Assembly (NCBI GenBank): GCA_000634515.1
Contig: JFNU01000004.1
Span: 124,001-188,000, forward strand
DNA: 64,000 bases
Reading direction: 5' to 3'
Source of the DNA: Prochlorococcus sp. scB245a_520K10
GTDB lineage: Bacteria > Cyanobacteriota > Cyanobacteriia > PCC-6307 > Cyanobiaceae
Shown one piece after another: positions 10,918-43,411 of this stretch. Within the stretch, counting starts at the first letter, position 1. Every line of letters starts with the position of its first letter. The notes below the pieces were generated by a model. That model had not been told where the DNA came from, did not search any database, and worked only from the letters and a program-made list of their open reading frames with translations. Both the position numbers and the translations under genes were made by a program.

Positions 10918-12321
10918 TTGATTTTTGATTAAATATTCCGCAATTTGTAGAGTAGCCAAACAATCATCTTTGTTATATTGGATAATTTTTTTTAAAAATA
11001 TTTCGTTTTTTGTAATTTTATATTGAATCCACCAATAAAGGGCTTTCGAGCCACTGACATCTTTCTGTACCCATTTAAATCCCAGCCAATTAGAGACCGT
11101 TTTTAAGCCATAGTTTTTTAGTGGTAATATTAAAGACTTTCTTATTAAGGTATGTAAGTCTATAAATCTTGAGGTTAGTAAATCAATTTCTTCAAAACTA
11201 TAATTAAGGTATCTAGCGATATTAATAATTGCTATTTTTTCAGTCTCTCCGTAATGTAAAACTGGCCATTCATTATTTGAAAAAAGTATTTTAATAATTT
11301 GCCTATAAGATTCACTTTTATTGTTTTCAAGATTTAAGATTGGCTCATAAATAAGATCTTCTTTTTTTGCAAACAAATTATTTATTTTTAAAAAACCATA
11401 TAAAAAGTCATGCTTTTCGTCTGGATTTGACTCAATATCAAATACATAAAATCCCGAAGATGTTTTTTTTAACAGATCATAATTATCATTTTTATTGGCG
11501 ATGTAATATGATTTCCCAGAAATATATGCTTTTGCTTGCTTTACAAACATGGAGGCTTTTAAAAACTTTTGATCATTGAACTGAGATAATTTCTCTCCAA
11601 GTTCTTTTTCACTATACGAAGCTAATTTTTGGGTATTAGATATTCCATTTGTTTTGAGTAATGAGGCCGTTTTGGATCCTATTCCATCTATATCGGTTAG
11701 ATATCCACTTTCTTTTGCTTCTTTGTCACAAAATTTTTGCCATGAACAAATAGTACATTTTTTTCTATCTTGAGTTATTTCTGGCATAAATCCCTCCAAG
11801 CACTCATTCAAACTTAATAAAACATTCAAAACCTTTTTTCTTAATTTTTTATTTAAATAAATTTCTTCAACATAAGGTTTATTACCAAAACTTGAAATTA
11901 CTAATCCCTTTTCAATTTTTGTTTCTTGAAAAGATTCTAAAAGAATAGAATTGAAAGCCAAGTCGAATAAATGTTCTTTAGTAGTTTTATGGCCTAATTT
12001 ATAAACAGCAGGTAGATATTTATATGGTCCCCATTTACTTACACCTTTAGTCTTCAAAAGTAATTGGGGATGTATCTCTGCATAAATATTTTGGAAAAAT
12101 TTTCCTTTAATTTTTAATCCAATTACCCCTTCATAACCATTTTCACAGGCTTTTAATCCCGTATATATTTCACCATTACATAATTTATAGAAAATTTGAA
12201 ATTGGTTAACTTTATCTATGGCTTTATGCGCAGACCATACTTCATAAGATTTATCACCCTTGAAATCTAGCCATGCTTTTCTCTTGCATCTTATAAAACT
12301 TTTTAAATAAAGAGTGTTCAA
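10903..12321 (-). CDS. TM0106-family RecB-like nuclease
   Basis: 472 residues in three parts. The N-terminal PD-(D/E)XK-like nuclease region opens with LKSFIRCKRKAWLDFKGD and ends in a cysteine cluster (CTICSWQKFC plus Cys7 in IRCKRK), reminiscent of the Fe-S-bearing RecB/Cas4-like nucleases. A helix-hairpin-helix-like segment follows (DIDGIGSKTASLLKTNGI). The C-terminal third resembles an RNase H-like/DEDD exonuclease (YVFDIESNPDE ... HYGETEKIAI ... YNKDDCLAT). This matches the TM0106 family found in cyanobacteria; the cellular role is unknown. No CRISPR array or cas gene is near. Confidence 0.8.
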   Translation of the reverse strand: MNTLYLKSFIRCKRKAWLDFKGDKSYEVWSAHKAIDKVNQFQIFYKLCNGEIYTGLKACENGYEGVIGLKIKGKFFQNIYAEIHPQLLLKTKGVSKWGPYKYLPAVYKLGHKTTKEHLFDLAFNSILLESFQETKIEKGLVISSFGNKPYVEEIYLNKKLRKKVLNVLLSLNECLEGFMPEITQDRKKCTICSWQKFCDKEAKESGYLTDIDGIGSKTASLLKTNGISNTQKLASYSEKELGEKLSQFNDQKFLKASMFVKQAKAYISGKSYYIANKNDNYDLLKKTSSGFYVFDIESNPDEKHDFLYGFLKINNLFAKKEDLIYEPILNLENNKSESYRQIIKILFSNNEWPVLHYGETEKIAIINIARYLNYSFEEIDLLTSRFIDLHTLIRKSLILPLKNYGLKTVSNWLGFKWVQKDVSGSKALYWWIQYKITKNEIFLKKIIQYNKDDCLATLQIAEYLIKNQLKKN

Positions 12322-12398
12322 ATTATTTTATTGGCGGTTTTAAATTTTACTTATATAAATTAATATAGATAATTAAAAGAAATCAAGGAAGTCTCAAT

Positions 12399-13853
12399 TT
12401 GCAAGGTGCCACATTAGAAAATGTAAAATTTGGAACTGATGGTTGGAGAGGAATAATTGGATTTGATTTTAACCTTTCCAATCTTTCAAGAGTTGTTGTG
12501 GCTTCATGCCAGGAGTTGCATTATCAATACTATAAAGAAGTTAATTCAAAGAAAATTTTAATTGGATATGATCGTAGATTTATGGCAAGTGAATTTGCCA
12601 AGCACATAGTTCCTTTTGTAAGAGGATGTGGTTTTGAACCAATCTTATCTAATAGCTTTGTTACAACTCCCTCCTGTAGTTTCTATGCCAAAGAAATGGG
12701 TTGTCTAGGAGCTTTAGTAATTACAGCAAGTCATAATCCATATAATTGGCTCGGCCTGAAAATAAAGAGCTTTAATGGATGTTCTGTTGACGAATCTTTT
12801 ACAAGTGAAATTGAAAAAAAATTAATGCTTGGAAATTCAATTGAAAAAATAGAGGGTGCCAATCAATTAGTAGATATTAAGAAGTTTCATTTGGATAGAA
12901 TTAAATCCCTTTTTGATATTGATTTCATTTCCAATAGATTGAAAAAAATGAAATTAAGAATTTTTGTAGATTCTATGCATGGTTCAGCTGCAAATTGTAT
13001 GACTGAGATTTTTGCTTCTAATGATTTAGAAGTTATTTCAGAAATCAGGAAAGATGCTGATCCTTTTTTTGGAGGAAAACCTCCTGAACCTCTTTTGAAT
13101 TATGTAGATGATCTAAATCAACTACTAATGAAAAATTCAACAAATGAAGTGAAAACTCTAGGAATTATATTTGATGGTGATGGTGACAGAATTGCGGCAA
13201 TTGATGAAAAAGGAAGATACTCTAGTACTCAAGATTTACTCCCATACTTTATTAGCTATTTGGGCGAAATTAAAAATAATTCTTATCCAGTTTTAAAGAC
13301 TGTTAGTGGTTCAGATATTATTAAAAATATATCAGAGAGTCAAAATAGAGATGTTTTTGAACTTCCAGTTGGCTTTAAATATATTGCTGAAAAAATGATT
13401 AAAGAGAAAATATTTATTGGAGGAGAGGAATCTGGGGGTGTTGGTTTTGGTGACTTTATGCCTGAAAGAGATGCTTTATATGCTGCGATGGTTTTATTAA
13501 ATGGAATTGCTGAAAAATTTCAATATTTATATGAAACCTTAGATGAAATTCAAAAAGATTTTGGGCCAAGTTTTTATAAAAGAATTGATATTAAATTTCC
13601 AAATCAGTCAGAAAAAAATAACGTAAAAGAATTTATCATAGATAATATTCCTGAGAATATTAATAATCATAAGTTAAAAAGTATCTCAAAGATTGATGGA
13701 ATAAAGTTGAGAATTGATAAAAATTTTTGGCTTCTTTTTAGGTTTTCAGGAACGGAACCTCTTTTAAGGTTATATTGTGAAGCACCAAAAGAATCTTATT
13801 TAGATGAGTTATTAGAGTGGGGTCATCTATTCATAAATTTGGCAGGAAAATAA
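12399..13853 (+). CDS. Phosphoglucomutase/phosphomannomutase family protein
   Basis: 484 residues from a TTG start at 12399, chosen because a Shine-Dalgarno-like AAGGAAG lies about 9 bases upstream and because FGTDGWRG (the conserved N-terminal motif) follows immediately. The phosphoserine loop is TASHNPYNW with Ser at residue 111; the metal-binding loop is DGDGDR (near 262-267); sugar-binding GGEESGG and the C-terminal phosphate loop RFSGTEPLLR are present. It interconverts hexose 1- and 6-phosphates; preference for glucose, mannose or glucosamine cannot be fixed by eye. The XTP pyrophosphatase start is 2 bp after its stop. Confidence 0.93.
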   Translation: MQGATLENVKFGTDGWRGIIGFDFNLSNLSRVVVASCQELHYQYYKEVNSKKILIGYDRRFMASEFAKHIVPFVRGCGFEPILSNSFVTTPSCSFYAKEMGCLGALVITASHNPYNWLGLKIKSFNGCSVDESFTSEIEKKLMLGNSIEKIEGANQLVDIKKFHLDRIKSLFDIDFISNRLKKMKLRIFVDSMHGSAANCMTEIFASNDLEVISEIRKDADPFFGGKPPEPLLNYVDDLNQLLMKNSTNEVKTLGIIFDGDGDRIAAIDEKGRYSSTQDLLPYFISYLGEIKNNSYPVLKTVSGSDIIKNISESQNRDVFELPVGFKYIAEKMIKEKIFIGGEESGGVGFGDFMPERDALYAAMVLLNGIAEKFQYLYETLDEIQKDFGPSFYKRIDIKFPNQSEKNNVKEFIIDNIPENINNHKLKSISKIDGIKLRIDKNFWLLFRFSGTEPLLRLYCEAPKESYLDELLEWGHLFINLAGK

Positions 13854-13855
13854 GT

Positions 13856-14431
13856 ATGAAAAATTTATATTTAGCGAGTAAGAATAAAGGTAAAATTCAA
13901 GAATATAAGAAATTGCTTGCTGCAGTTAATTGTAAATTATTACTCCAGCCAGAAACATTAGAAGTTGAGGAGGATGGACTGACATTTAGAGATAATGCAA
14001 TTAAAAAAGCAAGTGAAGTTTCGAGAAAAACAAATAATTTCTCAATAGCAGACGATTCTGGAATTTGTATTGAAGCACTAGATGGTAAGCCTGGCATTTA
14101 CTCATCTAGATATGCAGAAAATGATCAGAAGAGAATTGAACGAGTTTTAAAAGAACTTGATGGAGTTCAAAATAGAAGTGCTTTCTTTATTGCCAATATT
14201 TGTGTTTGTTCCCCAAATGGTGAAGTGATTATTGAATCTGAGGCTAAGTGTCATGGCAATATTATTTTAAACCCGAGAGGAAAAGGTGGTTTTGGGTATG
14301 ACCCAATTTTTGAGGAAAATTCTACTAGATTAACTTTCGCAGAAATGAATAATGATATTAAAGACTCTTGTAGTCATAGAGGTAAAGCATTAAACAAAAT
14401 TATTCCAGATTTGATTGAAATTTTTTCTTAA
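13856..14431 (+). CDS. rdgB: XTP/dITP pyrophosphatase (non-canonical purine NTPase, RdgB/HAM1)
   Basis: 191 residues from the ATG at 13856, two bases after the mutase stop. An upstream in-frame ATG at 13817 would add 13 residues inside the mutase gene and lacks conservation, so I reject it. Motifs: LASKNKGKIQEYKKLL (substrate/Mg loop), ADDSGICIEALDGKPGIYSSRYA, GKGGFGYDPIF, and SHRGKAL near the C-terminus. It hydrolyses ITP, XTP and their deoxy forms to keep them out of nucleic acids. It converges with the carotenoid oxygenase gene. Confidence 0.95.
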   Translation: MKNLYLASKNKGKIQEYKKLLAAVNCKLLLQPETLEVEEDGLTFRDNAIKKASEVSRKTNNFSIADDSGICIEALDGKPGIYSSRYAENDQKRIERVLKELDGVQNRSAFFIANICVCSPNGEVIIESEAKCHGNIILNPRGKGGFGYDPIFEENSTRLTFAEMNNDIKDSCSHRGKALNKIIPDLIEIFS

Positions 14432-14433
14432 AT

Positions 14434-15918
14434 TCAATTAACCCAAGATCCATGAAGGCCATGAGGAATTGAAATGGGTAATTCATAAACAGCTAATTCT
14501 TTTAAGTCTTTTGCGTCTAATATCACTAAATCGCTTCCTCTTCTTTCTCCGTTCCATAGAAGTATAAACAAAAATCCCTCATCTTCTTTTGAAGAGTTTT
14601 CTGATGGAACCATAATTGGTTCACTTACGAATCCACTTGGACCTGCTGACCAAGAAATCTCTTCCTTAGATATTAAATTGATTTTTTTTATTGCTTGAAG
14701 TGGAGCGTTCCCCAGCTTTTGAGATGTGCTTGCCATCCAACTAAAAGTTGCTTTTAATCCTAAGTTTTTAGGATTAACAACAGCAAATTCACAACATTGT
14801 TCACTTAAAGTTTCAAGTTCACTAGTTTTTTTCTTTAGATCGATAATTGATCTTTTCAGTTTTCCTTCTGGATATTTATCAAAGTCAATATCCCTAAAAT
14901 TCTCGTCTGGACCAACTGAAGGGAAATCATCATAAAAAATACTATCTAATACTATTTTGGAATCTTTTTCAAATGCATTTACATGATGAAAAACGAATCC
15001 TTCTGGAGCATCTATTGTTAACGGTGGCTGACCTCTAAATAATCCACTTTCTCTGGGGATGATAAAAAACTTTGCTTTTTTATTTGGGTTTGACTTTAGA
15101 CATTGTGCAGCTCCTCTTTGACCCATTACAAATGGAAGAGGATTGAAATCAATGGCATTCTGTAAGAATATTGCCCAATTAGTTGTAATTGCGAAATCAT
15201 GGAGGAATGCAAAGCCATTAAAGGTATCTTTTCTGTCGAAAATGAGCTCTCCAGAATTTGTACCAGCATTATTAAATTCCATTAATCTAATGGTGCTTTT
15301 TGGCCCGGTTTGTACCCCAAAAGTGACTAAAAGTTCTGAGGATGAATTTGAATTTAGGTCTGTTTTAGGATGGGCACTGAATGCTTCATTAGGCTTGAGT
15401 ACCCCTTTTAATGTTGATAAACCAATAGTGTCGAGACTATCAGGATCCATTGCATGTGGACCGGCTGCTTCCCATAATGCGAGAATTTCATCTCCTAATT
15501 TAACGACATGAGTATTGGCGATATTCTTGAATTTTAGATCTAATGCATTGTTTAAAATTCCTCCATTTTTTTGTGTCCCAAAAACACCTCTATAAATAAA
15601 TTTATTTATTTTTTCTTCTTCCAAATAGCCTTTAGTTTTAACAAATCTATTTGTTAAGAACGGCTGACCATTTTCGAACTTTATGGATGTGATCATTCCA
15701 TCACCGTCAAATGGATGATGAACCCATTGTCCACCTCTCTCTAATATTCCTGGTCCATTTCTTAATAATGTTCCATTTAAATTTTCAATATTATTACCGT
15801 TGCTAATTTTTAGAGGCTCTTTAGTAAGCTCCTTTTCTACATTTTGATACGCACTGGACCAATCTTCTTTATTAAAACTTTTAATTTTATCAATTTTTTC
15901 TTCTTGTAAATTAGTCAC
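14434..15918 (-). CDS. Carotenoid cleavage oxygenase (RPE65/CCD family)
   Basis: 494 residues, the usual family length. All four iron-ligand histidine contexts are visible: SAHPKTD, FLHDFAITTN, VFHHVNAFE and the C-terminal GLHGSWV. The early GTLLRNGPG and HPFDGDGMI motifs are also typical. It is a non-haem Fe(II) enzyme that cleaves carotenoids or apocarotenoids; substrate and bond cannot be predicted here. No signal peptide. A 72-bp gap separates it from hisB, which is upstream on the same strand. Confidence 0.92.
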   Translation of the reverse strand: MTNLQEEKIDKIKSFNKEDWSSAYQNVEKELTKEPLKISNGNNIENLNGTLLRNGPGILERGGQWVHHPFDGDGMITSIKFENGQPFLTNRFVKTKGYLEEEKINKFIYRGVFGTQKNGGILNNALDLKFKNIANTHVVKLGDEILALWEAAGPHAMDPDSLDTIGLSTLKGVLKPNEAFSAHPKTDLNSNSSSELLVTFGVQTGPKSTIRLMEFNNAGTNSGELIFDRKDTFNGFAFLHDFAITTNWAIFLQNAIDFNPLPFVMGQRGAAQCLKSNPNKKAKFFIIPRESGLFRGQPPLTIDAPEGFVFHHVNAFEKDSKIVLDSIFYDDFPSVGPDENFRDIDFDKYPEGKLKRSIIDLKKKTSELETLSEQCCEFAVVNPKNLGLKATFSWMASTSQKLGNAPLQAIKKINLISKEEISWSAGPSGFVSEPIMVPSENSSKEDEGFLFILLWNGERRGSDLVILDAKDLKELAVYELPISIPHGLHGSWVN

Positions 15919-40668: not shown

Positions 40669-41088
40669 ATGATTGATTCTAAGAATAAAGTTAATTCGAT
40701 ATTTTTTAGAAATATCATTTATTTAGTCCTTTCGATTATCGTTTCTTTTTGTATTTCAATAAAAAAATCAGATGCTTTGCCTCATAAATGGGTTGGCGTC
40801 CCTAAAAGTGAATATGGAGAACAGTTATGGGATAGGCAAAGTATAAAAAGGAATGAAGACGGTTCTGTAAGAGTATTGAGTAAATTTATTCCCAAAACAA
40901 AAAGTGAAATTACAAATGATATTCTTTATACAATGGATATAAATTGTTTTGAAAAATCATTCAGAGACGTTGATGTATCTATAGATGAAGTAAATAGTAA
41001 TTTCAATGATTCCGCTGATTGGCAAGACCCAAATGGAGATGAACTAATTTTGGGTGTAATTAGTCAAGTATGCAGAATAGAAAACTAA
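40669..41088 (+). CDS. Secreted hypothetical protein, adhesin-E-like fold suggested
   Basis: 139 residues with a clear signal peptide (hydrophobic core about 14-30, likely cleavage around SDA-LP near residue 37). The mature part has WVGVPKSEYGEQLWDRQSIKR, VRVLSKFIP and YTMDINCFEKSFRDVDV, a small beta-rich pattern resembling surface-adhesin E-like or other conserved cyanobacterial exported proteins. Two cysteines in the mature part (near residues 89 and 135) could form a disulfide. It ends about 60 bp before a strong hairpin terminator. Function unknown. Confidence 0.75.
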   Translation: MIDSKNKVNSIFFRNIIYLVLSIIVSFCISIKKSDALPHKWVGVPKSEYGEQLWDRQSIKRNEDGSVRVLSKFIPKTKSEITNDILYTMDINCFEKSFRDVDVSIDEVNSNFNDSADWQDPNGDELILGVISQVCRIEN

Positions 41089-41146
41089 TAAATTTCAAAT
41101 TCTAGAAATAAAATAAAAAATAAGTTTCTACATTTCTAGAAAATAT

Positions 41147-41171
41147 AAAACCCCTTCATAGAAGGGGTTTT
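41147..41171 (+). terminator. Rho-independent-type hairpin after the secreted hypothetical gene
   Basis: 11-bp perfect stem (AAAACCCCTTC/GAAGGGGTTTT) with a 3-nt loop. It has A and T runs at both sides, so it can work in both directions. It lies immediately left of the duplicated tRNA-Phe end. Confidence 0.85.
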
Positions 41172-41206
41172 AAAGGTGCCAGGACCCAGATTTGAAGTGG
41201 AGACAA
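41170..41206 (-). repeat. Truncated duplicate of the tRNA-Phe 3' end (att-like site)
   Basis: Bases 41170-41196 are identical to 42014-42040, the 3' end of the intact tRNA-Phe gene plus flank (27 bp direct repeat); the next 10 bases differ at 3 positions. Distance between the copies is 844 bp. A short copy of a tRNA 3' end at a distance from the real gene is the usual footprint of site-specific integration by a tyrosine recombinase. Confidence 0.8.
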
Positions 41207-41277
41207 TATTAAAAATAGTTAATTTTCAGTATCATAATGATACCAAAAAGACCCTTTTTTGGGGTTAATTTTTTAAC

Positions 41278-41298
41278 TAACATTCCACTAACATTCCA
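41278..41298 (+). repeat. Tandem pair of TAACATTCCA (left)
   Basis: Two copies of the decamer at 41278-41287 and 41289-41298, 11 bp apart, about one helical turn. A similar pair recurs at 41866-41886, and an inverted copy lies at 41346-41355. Position near an att-like repeat suggests recombinase arm-binding sites; this is inference. Confidence 0.6.
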
Positions 41299-41345
41299 TA
41301 TCCATTTAATAAGAATGGTTGTGCAGGATAATTTCTATTACAAAA

Positions 41346-41355
41346 TGGAATGTTA
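41346..41355 (-). repeat. Inverted copy of TAACATTCCA
   Basis: TGGAATGTTA on the plus strand, the exact reverse complement of the decamer repeated on both sides of the element, 48 bp right of the left pair. Confidence 0.5.
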
Positions 41356-41479
41356 TTAACTCCATTAAATATTAGTTGGCTTAATAAAGTATTAAGTATT
41401 ATTTCTAAAAGGCTTTAAAAAAAATATATGTTTTATTTTTAGTCAACCAAAATTTTAGAGAATATAAAGGGATTTTAAT

Positions 41480-41707
41480 ATGAAAGATTTCCTACTAAAA
41501 ATTTTTAACTTTCTAAAAGATCTTTACAATAAACTTATTAAATTTTTAAAAAGTATTTCACCTGAAGAGAAGCCAGTTGAGGAAGAGAAGCCAGTTGAGG
41601 AAGAGAAGCCAGTTGAGGAAGAGAAGCCAGTTGAGGAAGAGAAGCCAGTTGAGGAAGAGAAGCCAGTTGAGGAAGAGAAGCAAGCTGAAGATGAAAAACC
41701 AGTTTAA
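41480..41707 (+). CDS. Small Lys/Glu/Pro/Val repeat protein, possibly truncated
   Basis: 75 residues. An N-terminal amphipathic helix of about 28 residues (MKDFLLKIFNFLKDLYNKLI ...) is followed by six identical EEKPVE units, a degenerate EEKQAE and DEKPV before a TAA. The DNA of the repeats is six perfect 18-bp copies (41564-41671), a sign of recent tandem expansion. Reading past the TAA in the same frame gives 25 more codons including W-C-N-E-C, so the stop may be a recent nonsense mutation. It is the only sizeable ORF in the element; function unknown. Confidence 0.6.
   Translation: MKDFLLKIFNFLKDLYNKLIKFLKSISPEEKPVEEEKPVEEEKPVEEEKPVEEEKPVEEEKPVEEEKQAEDEKPV
41564..41689 (+). repeat. Tandem 18-bp coding repeat
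   Basis: Six exact copies of an 18-bp unit encoding EEKPVE (41564-41671), then one diverged unit encoding EEKQAE (41672-41689). Units are head to tail with no spacers. Copy number is likely to vary between strains through slippage. Confidence 0.95.
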
Positions 41708-41865
41708 AAAAGATGGTGTAATGAATGTAATGCTTATGCAACTACAGCAAGCATTTTAAAAGGACTCAAGAAATGGATGATATGAGTGACAACATCAGAG
41801 CAAACTTCTATGAAGATGGAATGTAAGTTCTGGGGATTAAAAAAGTAGTAATTTTATTGCTCAAC

Positions 41866-41886
41866 TAACATTCCACTTACATTCCA
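41866..41886 (+). repeat. Tandem pair of TAACATTCCA (right)
   Basis: TAACATTCCA at 41866-41875 and TTACATTCCA at 41877-41886, with the same 11-bp spacing as the left pair. The flanking AACTAACATTCCAC is shared between both sides. It lies about 128 bp from the intact tRNA-Phe end. Confidence 0.6.
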
Positions 41887-41897
41887 AATATATGCCC

Positions 41898-41930
41898 CTC
41901 AGAGAGTTCATTTTTGCTCTCTGAGTGTTT
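41898..41930 (+). terminator. Terminator-like hairpin inside the element
   Basis: Perfect 9-bp inverted repeat CTCAGAGAG/CTCTCTGAG (41898-41906 and 41917-41925) with a 10-nt loop, followed by TGTTTCTTT. It could end transcription of the repeat-protein gene. Confidence 0.6.
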
Positions 41931-42020
41931 CTTTAGATATCCTGAAAAGAACTGTCAGAACAAATTTTAGGCATTAAAAAAGCACCTTTTCAGATGCTCA
42001 ATTAATCCTTTTATTAAAGG

Positions 42021-42093
42021 TGCCAGGACCCAGATTTGAACTGGGGACACGGCGATTTTCAGTCGCCTGCTCTACCAACTGAGCTATCCCGGC
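42021..42093 (-). tRNA. tRNA-Phe (GAA)
   Basis: 73-nt cloverleaf: acceptor GCCGGGA/TCCTGGC with one G-U pair, D arm GCTC/GAGC, anticodon loop CTGAAAA with GAA, T arm with TTCAAAT, discriminator A, CCA not encoded. Its 3' end is duplicated at 41170-41206, marking it as an integration site. Confidence 0.97.
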
Positions 42094-42181
42094 TGTAACC
42101 TATATACTTTAAATTAAGATGTGTAGTTTGTGAAACCCTTTTCGCTAAAAATTTTATATCTTCATCAAATATCAAAAATTA

Positions 42182-43411
42182 TTATTTTGAATTAATGGCT
42201 AATAACGCAGCACCAAATGAAGTAGTTTTATTACATGAAACTATTGGTATATTTATAATTTTTTCTCTTATTTTTCTCCACTGAGGGTTTTTTGAACCTC
42301 CGCCAATAGTAATAATTTTTTTTGGAAGCGAACCCGTCAGTTCGCGAAGTTTTTCCCATCCTTTCAATTCAATATTAGCTAGTCCCTCGAATAGTGCATG
42401 TAAATAAAGCGAGTCGCTTACTGGTCTAGGACCAAGAATCGGCTCTAAATTAGAATTATTTATAGGAAATCTCTCTCCTTTACTATTAAGGGGTAAAAGA
42501 TTTAGAGAAGTATTTTTCGATGGATTTATTTGTCGACTTAGTTCTTTGATTTCTAAATTAGAAAAAAATTTAGATAAGATACCGCATCCTGCGTTTGATG
42601 CGCCTCCACAGATCCAATCGCCATTGACTCTATGTGTTGTGATTCCTTGTTCTTTTACTGGCTTATCAATAATTTTTTTAACTACAATAGTTGTTCCTAA
42701 AACTGTCAGACCATCTTCTTTCCCTAAACTTGCCGCTATTAAACTTGCATTAGAATCAGTGGTGCCTGAGATCAATATTAATTTTTTATTCAAGTTAAAT
42801 CTTTTTGCTAAATCAGAATTAACTAGTCCAATAATTTTTCCACTTTTTATTATTTCAGGCAAGCATTTTTGCCATGAAGTATTCAGAAAGCTTATTGGCC
42901 AAGATCCTTTTTTTATATCCCAACCAAGTTTGATATTATTGCCTTCTTCTCCATAAGTCCAATCTTTTAAAAACCAGCCAGTTATCCAATCAGATTGATG
43001 TCTTAAAAGTATATTTGTCCCATATTTATCTATTAAATTCAGTGCTTTTGCAAGACTACTGTATGGAGTTTGTAAATGATCTTCTCCAGAAGTTAACGAT
43101 TCAAGAAGAATCTTATTTTCATTACATGCTTGGTCATATGGTATTGCTTTTCCCATCGGCTCCCCTTTTAAATTGGATGCTATCAAAGTTCCTGAGGTTC
43201 CAGATATAGCCAATTTATTAAGGTTACTTTTTACCTCAACAGGTATACTATCTAAAAGTTTTTCACAAGAGTTGATCCAAGAATTTGGATTTTTAAAACC
43301 ATATAGATAAGGAACTGAATTTGAATATACCAATTCCTTATGAAGATCAATTATTGATATTCTTACACCACTGGTTCCAAAATCTAACCCTCCATAAAAA
43401 TTATCAGGCAT
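42182..43411 (-). CDS. FGGY-family carbohydrate kinase, D-ribulokinase-like
   Basis: 409 residues. N-terminal phosphate loop GLDFGTSGVRISIID, then LAISGTSGTLIASNLKGEP, GTTDSNASLIAASLGKEDG and GGGSKNPQWRKIREKI. The whole pattern closely follows the cyanobacterial/plant XK-1 group, whose Synechococcus elongatus member (SePSK) is reported to prefer D-ribulose over xylulose. Likely phosphorylates a ketopentose; the exact substrate needs assay. metK lies 9 bp upstream on the same strand. Confidence 0.88.
   Translation of the reverse strand: MPDNFYGGLDFGTSGVRISIIDLHKELVYSNSVPYLYGFKNPNSWINSCEKLLDSIPVEVKSNLNKLAISGTSGTLIASNLKGEPMGKAIPYDQACNENKILLESLTSGEDHLQTPYSSLAKALNLIDKYGTNILLRHQSDWITGWFLKDWTYGEEGNNIKLGWDIKKGSWPISFLNTSWQKCLPEIIKSGKIIGLVNSDLAKRFNLNKKLILISGTTDSNASLIAASLGKEDGLTVLGTTIVVKKIIDKPVKEQGITTHRVNGDWICGGASNAGCGILSKFFSNLEIKELSRQINPSKNTSLNLLPLNSKGERFPINNSNLEPILGPRPVSDSLYLHALFEGLANIELKGWEKLRELTGSLPKKIITIGGGSKNPQWRKIREKIINIPIVSCNKTTSFGAALLAINSK

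Follow-up and report, generated by a model that had tools for sequence, protein, structure and literature searches.

Integration at tRNA ends is already known, and in Prochlorococcus the tRNA-bounded cargo elements called tycheposons were reportedly described by Hackl et al. in 2023. Tycheposons range from 4 to 200 kb and carry a tyrosine recombinase, according to the available part of PMC10872708. A novel tyrosine integrase (cluster158946) located beside tRNA-Phe or tRNA-Cys in marine picocyanobacteria has also been published already, in a 2023 preprint; in the available part of that paper, the enzyme is often near a small serine recombinase, is distinct from tycheposon integrases, and has a mobilisation mechanism that the authors call 'not yet known' (PMC10187409). 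Other known kinds of unit, as presented in the available parts of two sources, are CIMEs, which are flanked by att sites, lack integration genes and by definition derive from ICEs or IMEs through decay (PMC5704250), and MITEs and integron cassettes with the related CALIN (PMC11389934).

The locus described here lies in a 64-kb window, i.e., the whole stretch of DNA that was analysed, and consists of an 844-bp element at the 3′ end of tRNA-Phe. We interpret 41170–42040 as a non-autonomous integrative element that amounts to a single-gene cassette and is mobilised in trans by an integrase of the tRNA-Phe/Cys family, and we give this reading a probability of about three in four. The parts of it that can be read from the sequences are the insertion, the empty sites, the class-specific repeats, the exchangeable cargo, the spread between lineages, and the repeat classes common to integrase-bearing and miniature elements.

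The elements examined here agree in hosts and in both target tRNAs with those of the tRNA-Phe/Cys integrase, as far as that text is available (PMC10187409). At the same sites we found integrase-like proteins, two of which are near a small serine recombinase. The window element is located at tRNA-Phe, as tRNA-Phe/Cys integrase elements are. Across the elements, end modules are homologous or belong to common repeat classes. It differs from the elements of the available text of PMC10187409, where the phrase 'direct repeat' is absent, in having 844 bp and neither an integrase nor a serine recombinase. It is a tRNA-bounded insertion like the tycheposons but is far below their published size range and has no recombinase. 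The link to tycheposons drawn in the original prediction is not supported; the putative integrases at tRNA-Phe match by context a family that the available text calls distinct from tycheposon integrases (PMC10187409). Like a CIME (PMC5704250, available part), the window element keeps attL and attR and lacks integration and transfer genes, and tandem accretion at one tRNA also occurs (G021, G110). No conjugation gene came to notice in the elements. However, CIMEs are decay products by definition, whereas the present elements are a family whose cargo is exchangeable and which has spread between lineages; related integrase-bearing elements exist beside the miniatures, which bears on CIME-type descent. 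Integron cassettes and CALIN (PMC11389934, available part) are likewise integrase-less mobile units, sometimes stacked at a fixed site, with the enzyme acting in trans, but here the site of recombination is the 3′ end of a tRNA, accompanied by paired arm repeats. MITEs, in the same available text, are short and non-autonomous and have ends common to an autonomous partner; they are moved by a transposase and have no coding genes, whereas the present element carries a gene, has one tRNA target and ends in direct tRNA repeats. Our literature search, which ran without the main tycheposon paper (Hackl 2023), returned no report on integrase-less members or miniatures of the family or on their arm sites. 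The elements bear on single-gene exchange among the small, streamlined genomes of Prochlorococcus, and they suggest that genes may travel with a few hundred base pairs of mobile-element DNA, an amount that searches based on integrases would miss.

Insertion and occupancy at the tRNA-Phe 3′ end

The features of the window element and the candidate integrases are collected in Table 1. The two attachment cores, which lie 844 nt apart, are identical at 27 of 27 positions in the repeat comparison within the window and belong to a repeat of 36 nt if 2 mismatches are allowed. A 22-nt tail of tRNA-Phe occurs at exactly two places in the 64 kb at up to 3 mismatches, and two places were found in 0 of 100 shuffles. 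The element interval gives a single match in the host assembly. The original prediction of a 27-bp tRNA-Phe 3′-end duplication 844 bp apart was thus borne out, as were the 10 further bases with 3 mismatches beyond the repeat.

Table 1. Coordinates of the window element and places of the candidate integrases
Feature	Location	Strand	Basis or remark
tRNA-Phe(gaa), target gene, left whole by insertion	42019–42093	−	ARAGORN; Rfam RF00005
Proximal attachment core, 27 bp = tRNA 3′ end + TTTAA	42014–42040	−	Direct repeat
Terminator-like hairpin, element-borne, immediately after tRNA-Phe	41980–41999	−	Aligns in end classes A–C
Second hairpin adjoining proximal arm pair	41898–41925	.	Hairpin analysis
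Proximal arm pair, two TGGAATGTnAG copies, 11-bp period	41865–41886	−	Present in relatives
Inner inverted single arm copy	41817–41827	+	Motif search
Cargo gene, 75 aa, amphipathic-looking N-terminus + EEKPVE repeats	41480–41707	+	ORF; frame conserved
Inner inverted single arm copy, 1 mismatch	41346–41356	+	Motif search
Distal arm pair, two TGGAATGTnAG copies, 11-bp period	41277–41298	−	Present in relatives
Palindrome GTATCA-taa-TGATAC between distal arms and core	41229–41243	.	Alignment
Distal attachment core	41170–41196	−	Direct repeat; tRNA similarity continues to 41205, 2 mismatches
Native tRNA-Phe terminator, pushed to far side by insertion	41146–41172	−	Directly follows tRNA in empty sites
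Candidate integrase by distal core	G182		Class B
Candidate integrase by distal core	G137		Class D, split over contigs
Candidate integrase by distal core	G034		Own arms; only tRNA-Phe fragment on contig stretch
Candidate integrase by distal core	G134		Class G, one in-frame TAG
Candidate integrase fragment by distal core	G215		Class D
Candidate integrase homologs near tRNA-Cys	G086, G158, G238		
Candidate integrase homolog	G053		No tRNA on stretch

When the flanks 40901–41196 and 42041–42300 are joined, they align with the empty sites of G254 and G116 without a gap over 556 of 556 columns at 95.3% identity, and with those of G234 and G152 at approximately 90% with small gaps. The hairpin terminator that follows the tRNA in the empty sites is now located beyond the element, and the element's own hairpin follows the tRNA. 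The 844-bp interval was genuinely inserted at the 3′ end of tRNA-Phe.

The tRNA-Phe gene and the neighbouring kinase are present in 233 of the 266 genomes of the genus. Occupancy was judged from the position of the conserved downstream gene in a sample of the best 150 places of tRNA-Phe and kinase, in which nearer relatives are favoured; 148 of the 150 were used regardless of content, and G167 and G191 were left out because their contigs extend less than 310 nt downstream. Among the 148 genomes, 119 sites are empty, 26 are occupied, 2 are rearranged (G006 and G109), and 1 is too short (G085). The occupied sites comprise 24 with a displaced downstream gene and two cut by contig ends (G137 and G190). 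The tRNA end is duplicated distally over at least 15 nt in 20 of the 24 displaced-gene sites; the exceptions are G019, G159, G245, and G261. Occupant sizes range from 146 bp (G133) to approximately 8.1 kb (G215), with very varied content. Another 16 stretches (G115 and 15 others), chosen for element or end matches or for longer occupied loci, are kept outside these counts. Comparison of the interval across Prochlorococcus genomes, which had been proposed with the original prediction, yielded empty sites in most of the sampled genomes (119/148), so that the same 844 bp is not common to all relatives, as well as other cargo and integrase-bearing versions. The predicted insertion of the tyrosine-recombinase type is supported by the empty sites, by the other occupants, and by the versions with an integrase found at this site.

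Arm repeats, cargo, and spread of the miniature element

Read in the orientation of the tRNA, the element consists of the core, the terminator hairpin, the second hairpin, a tandem TGGAATGTnAG pair, an inverted copy, and the cargo, followed by another inverted TGGAATGTnAG copy, the second tandem pair, the palindrome, and the distal core. The exact TGGAATGTnAG motif has 5 copies in the 64-kb window, all within the 844-bp element. A stretch similar to the palindrome aligns in end classes A–D and is degenerate in several members. The ORF list, with 75 aa as the largest ORF, contains no integrase in the interval, and this ORF size and the lack of a resolvase match likewise exclude a small serine recombinase in the window element. 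The host genome has two PF00589 matches, both on other contigs, in agreement with the predicted absence of an integrase from the element. Rfam returned the tRNA and a rimP-leader match below the gathering score, which was taken as chance, and a reading of the interval as an RNA element was rejected. Elsewhere in the window genome, a 426-aa weakly PF00589-like recombinase (L296:6234–7514, G000:C169) lies a few kilobases from a tRNA-Pro gene (2247–2320) and possibly marks a separate tRNA-linked island.

The arms of the window element define class A. The class A repeat TGGAATGT is present in six copies with the same layout in 5 of the 9 class A elements read at both ends and in 4–5 copies in the other 4; G100 and G263 have one arm copy only at the distal end. 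Outside the element set its frequency is 0.012 per kb, an over-estimate in that a few second fetches of occupied loci remained in the background. At up to 2 mismatches, the arm pair was found in 15 of 266 genomes with 24 matches, all at tRNA-Phe sites, and the reversed pattern had no match in the 266 genomes. A scan of one genome each for 84,980 species located the exact pair in 7 contigs, all picocyanobacterial: six labelled Prochlorococcus, including MIT 9107, and one uncultured Synechococcaceae. Neither the 266 genomes nor the exact scans of the species genomes and viral contigs contained an integrase-bearing element with TGGAATGTnAG arms, and all arm-pair genomes among the 266 are without a detected tRNA-Phe/Cys-family integrase. 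Several occupants have unusual forms. MIT 9107 (G021; L307 and L308) has a class G element followed in tandem by a class A element, and both contigs end in 18-nt repeats of the cargo gene. In G019 (L131, 0–4.2 kb downstream of tRNA-Phe), a decayed class A occupant, for which only proximal arms were found, has three genes, two of which encode a carbamoyltransferase-like protein of 619 aa and an SGNH-like protein of 386 aa (both named by eye). Cargo-less elements of 252 bp in G062 (L102) and 146 bp in G133 (L109) lie downstream of tRNA-Phe; the former looks as though its two arm pairs had merged into a single one, much like a solo LTR, and both look like internal deletions carried to the end.

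The cargo protein of the window begins with MKDFLLKIFNFLKDLYNKLIKFLKSISP and continues into EEKPVE repeats. Its frame is kept in G100, G115, G120, G263, G264, and G021, with a varying number of six-residue repeats. The first 84 coding nucleotides have 0–2 changes relative to the window, 2 positions being different in G263. The sole Pfam match is below the cut-off of that family, and we read it as reflecting composition. The product may be a membrane-associated protein with an acidic repeat tail, which is a guess from the sequence. A 150-aa EEKPVE-repeat relative is encoded in G002 (L298:7203–7655), not within an element of this kind but on a 14-kb stretch with no tRNA gene, and this gene is a possible chromosomal source of the captured cargo. 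Other class A elements carry different genes: a 116-aa lipoprotein-like protein in G219, a 139-aa protein with a DUF2511 match in G211, and a 131-aa exported-looking protein in G059. Alignment of the window element with these three is confined to both termini.

The nearest relatives by flanking DNA (G116, G254, and G234, with kinase identities of 94–96%) are without the element. The element is whole in one distant strain, G115, and about two thirds of it are present in two others, G263 and G264. The entire interior in G115 is 88.6% identical to the window, whereas the flanks are 72.6% (kinase), 79.5% (metK), 80.0% (dedA), and 74.4% (secreted-protein gene, over 313 nt) identical. A 491-nt stretch in G263 is 89.2% identical, with 67.9% for the kinase and 75.8% for metK, and a 545-nt stretch in G264 is 83.1% identical, with 67.0% for the kinase. 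Element identities in G100, G120, and G021 (83–91%) are similar to those of their flanks and are uninformative on transfer. The higher conservation of mostly non-coding DNA than of the neighbouring genes implies that the miniature form already existed when it passed between lineages, and hence that the element travelled as a miniature.

This pattern bears on the three options named in the original prediction. Since the miniature itself has moved between distant lineages, movement in trans and minimal cargo fit better, and a deletion remnant fits worse. Under the last option, an integrase-bearing island would have lost its integrase and most of its cargo, leaving an immobile stub that is vertically inherited. 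Integrase-bearing elements with related ends do occur at the same site, decayed or cargo-less stubs exist (G062, G133, G019, and G159), and miniatures probably began through such deletions. We nevertheless consider an immobile remnant unlikely, given that the same short form and cargo are 83–89% identical where the flanks are 67–80% identical and close relatives are without it, that arm copies are retained at both ends in 9 elements, and that differing single genes lie between the same ends. Ordinary homologous recombination after DNA uptake, with the tRNA repeats as passive homology, would agree with repeats that are identical at both ends and with the lack of an encoded enzyme. It would have to act on only 27–36 bp, which is little homology, the class-specific pairs of 11-bp period and the inverted copies would have no role, and the divergent flanks were not carried along; we regard this explanation as very improbable.

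Candidate integrases and proposed mobilisation in trans

Further tRNA-Phe occupants are marked by short repeats of their own close to either terminus, namely TATGGAAC in class B, TATGTAAG in class C, and GAATGGTAC in class D; further classes are E (TATGGAAG), F (GAGTACAC), and G (CAGTACA). When the repeat cores were counted in the element ends, nearly all fell on the class diagonal, with a background of at most 0.09 per 500 nt; since the counts were made in the very ends from which the classes had been defined by eye, the diagonal indicates tidiness and is not an independent proof. The exceptions are one off-diagonal match, G048 without its core, and the decayed G245, G159, and G261 with one copy each. 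Words shared by the two ends of the same element are clear in 13 of 26 elements (at most 1 in 100 shuffles). The ends of classes A–C, and partly D, align as homologous modules.

A candidate integrase family was detected in 9 of the 266 genomes, with members by the distal core at tRNA-Phe and homologs near tRNA-Cys (Table 1). An alignment of six members has conserved R, RHT, and Y columns. Profile searches of Pfam, NCBIfam, PHROGs, and PDB did not recognise the family as a tyrosine recombinase, and hhalign to two other recombinases was weak. The small serine recombinase of G182 has a Pfam resolvase match, and that of G137 is by eye a close relative of it. The candidates resemble cluster158946 by tRNA, host, and serine recombinase, a match by context to the available part of PMC10187409. 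From the conserved columns and the context common to the published family, we regard the enzyme as a putative tyrosine integrase. No member of the candidate family is detectable in the window genome (G000, 88% complete), and hence no helper is visible there.

The end modules of the integrase-bearing elements were compared with those of the miniatures. G182 has its best match in the integrase-less G103 (264 bits), followed by G102 and G250, and G134 matches G021 (237 bits) and G093. The tRNA-Cys scan covered 73 loci, three of which were picked for their integrase; L309 and L291 are from one genome, L370 has no tRNA, and 30 loci have at most 1.5 kb downstream. Distal copies of the tRNA end were found in 7 elements of 0.74–2.05 kb and in three integrase-bearing elements, and the host genomes of the 7 small elements are without a detected tRNA-Phe/Cys-family integrase. 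Two pairs emerged at this tRNA: G086 with G031 at 321 bits (arms GGGCGGTAAG) and, at 248 bits, G158 with G003 (arms GGATGGTAAG). The same relation between integrase-bearing and miniature elements thus holds at both tRNAs. In the end-module comparison 4 of 6 integrase-bearing ends were paired; for G238 and the G215 fragment, no miniature matched strongly. The class-specific repeats common to integrase-bearing elements and other miniatures suggest mobilisation in trans.

We propose the following pathway for the window element. The 27-bp core of the element would recombine site-specifically with the same sequence of the tRNA, and this would bring the element into the 3′ end of tRNA-Phe. The new tRNA 3′ end and terminator would come from the element, and tRNA-Phe stays whole because the element supplies both. 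The substrate of a lambda-type integrase consists of a core and paired arm sites at both ends. With its core, paired 11-bp arms, inverted copies, and palindrome, the element may represent the substrate side of a tyrosine-recombinase system without the enzyme. Excision, circularisation, and integration would most likely occur when an integrase-bearing relative provides a matching integrase in trans. Binding of the arms by the integrase, its supply in trans, a circular intermediate, and an integrase serving this arm class are the presumed steps of the pathway. Internal deletions in integrase-bearing elements probably gave rise to the miniatures, which took up cargo afterwards. The miniatures would expose the probable DNA code of the tRNA-Phe/Cys integrase, i.e., the core, the paired arm repeats, and class specificity, and such a code makes the enzyme testable in vitro.

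The element could also have been moved in trans by another recombinase, such as a phage, tycheposon, or island integrase. No integrase of this arm class was found in the genomes and contigs searched, and strong PF00589 integrases (at least 65 bits) are present in 5 of 15 arm-bearing genomes and 42 of 251 others (raw counts). This excess is modest, no arm pair turned up in the vicinity of those integrases, and the ends of the element match the architecture of class B and partly class D elements, which carry the tRNA-Phe enzyme; we therefore judge the involvement of another recombinase to be improbable, and mobilisation in trans by a class-matched integrase is the most economical reading. A link to PF00589 island integrases, apparent in 38 occupancy-selected genomes, was dropped in view of the genus-wide counts. 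A phage origin was also rejected: the element interior matches 0 of 50,697 phage records, and a query including the tRNA matched 393, all on the tRNA part among the matches listed (20). Viral contigs contained no relative by exact arm pair, exact tRNA tail, or integrase alignment.

A wider proposal, which we hold tentatively and at somewhat less than even odds, is that tRNA-Phe and tRNA-Cys are two cassette ports of Prochlorococcus. Small integrase-less cassettes, many of them carrying one gene only, of about a dozen incompatible arm classes would be inserted, stacked, and swapped there by passing class-matched integrases, which are often absent from the host genome. If true, this would be integron-like gene sharing built of tRNA ends and arm sites.

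Two of the integrase-bearing loci have other genes nearby. The element of G034 (L290:8134–9308) lies at a tRNA-Phe fragment, with a second fragment and an arm pair (TGGTAGGTGAG) adjoining, and a type I restriction enzyme is encoded at 11961–15062. The 8-kb occupant of G215 (L143) is perhaps a defence island. In the region approximately 1.2–6.5 kb downstream of tRNA-Phe it encodes a protein resembling type II DNA methyltransferases and two proteins named by eye: a GHKL-type ATPase-like protein, for which PADLOC gave no match, and a helicase-like protein whose N-terminus is nuclease-like.
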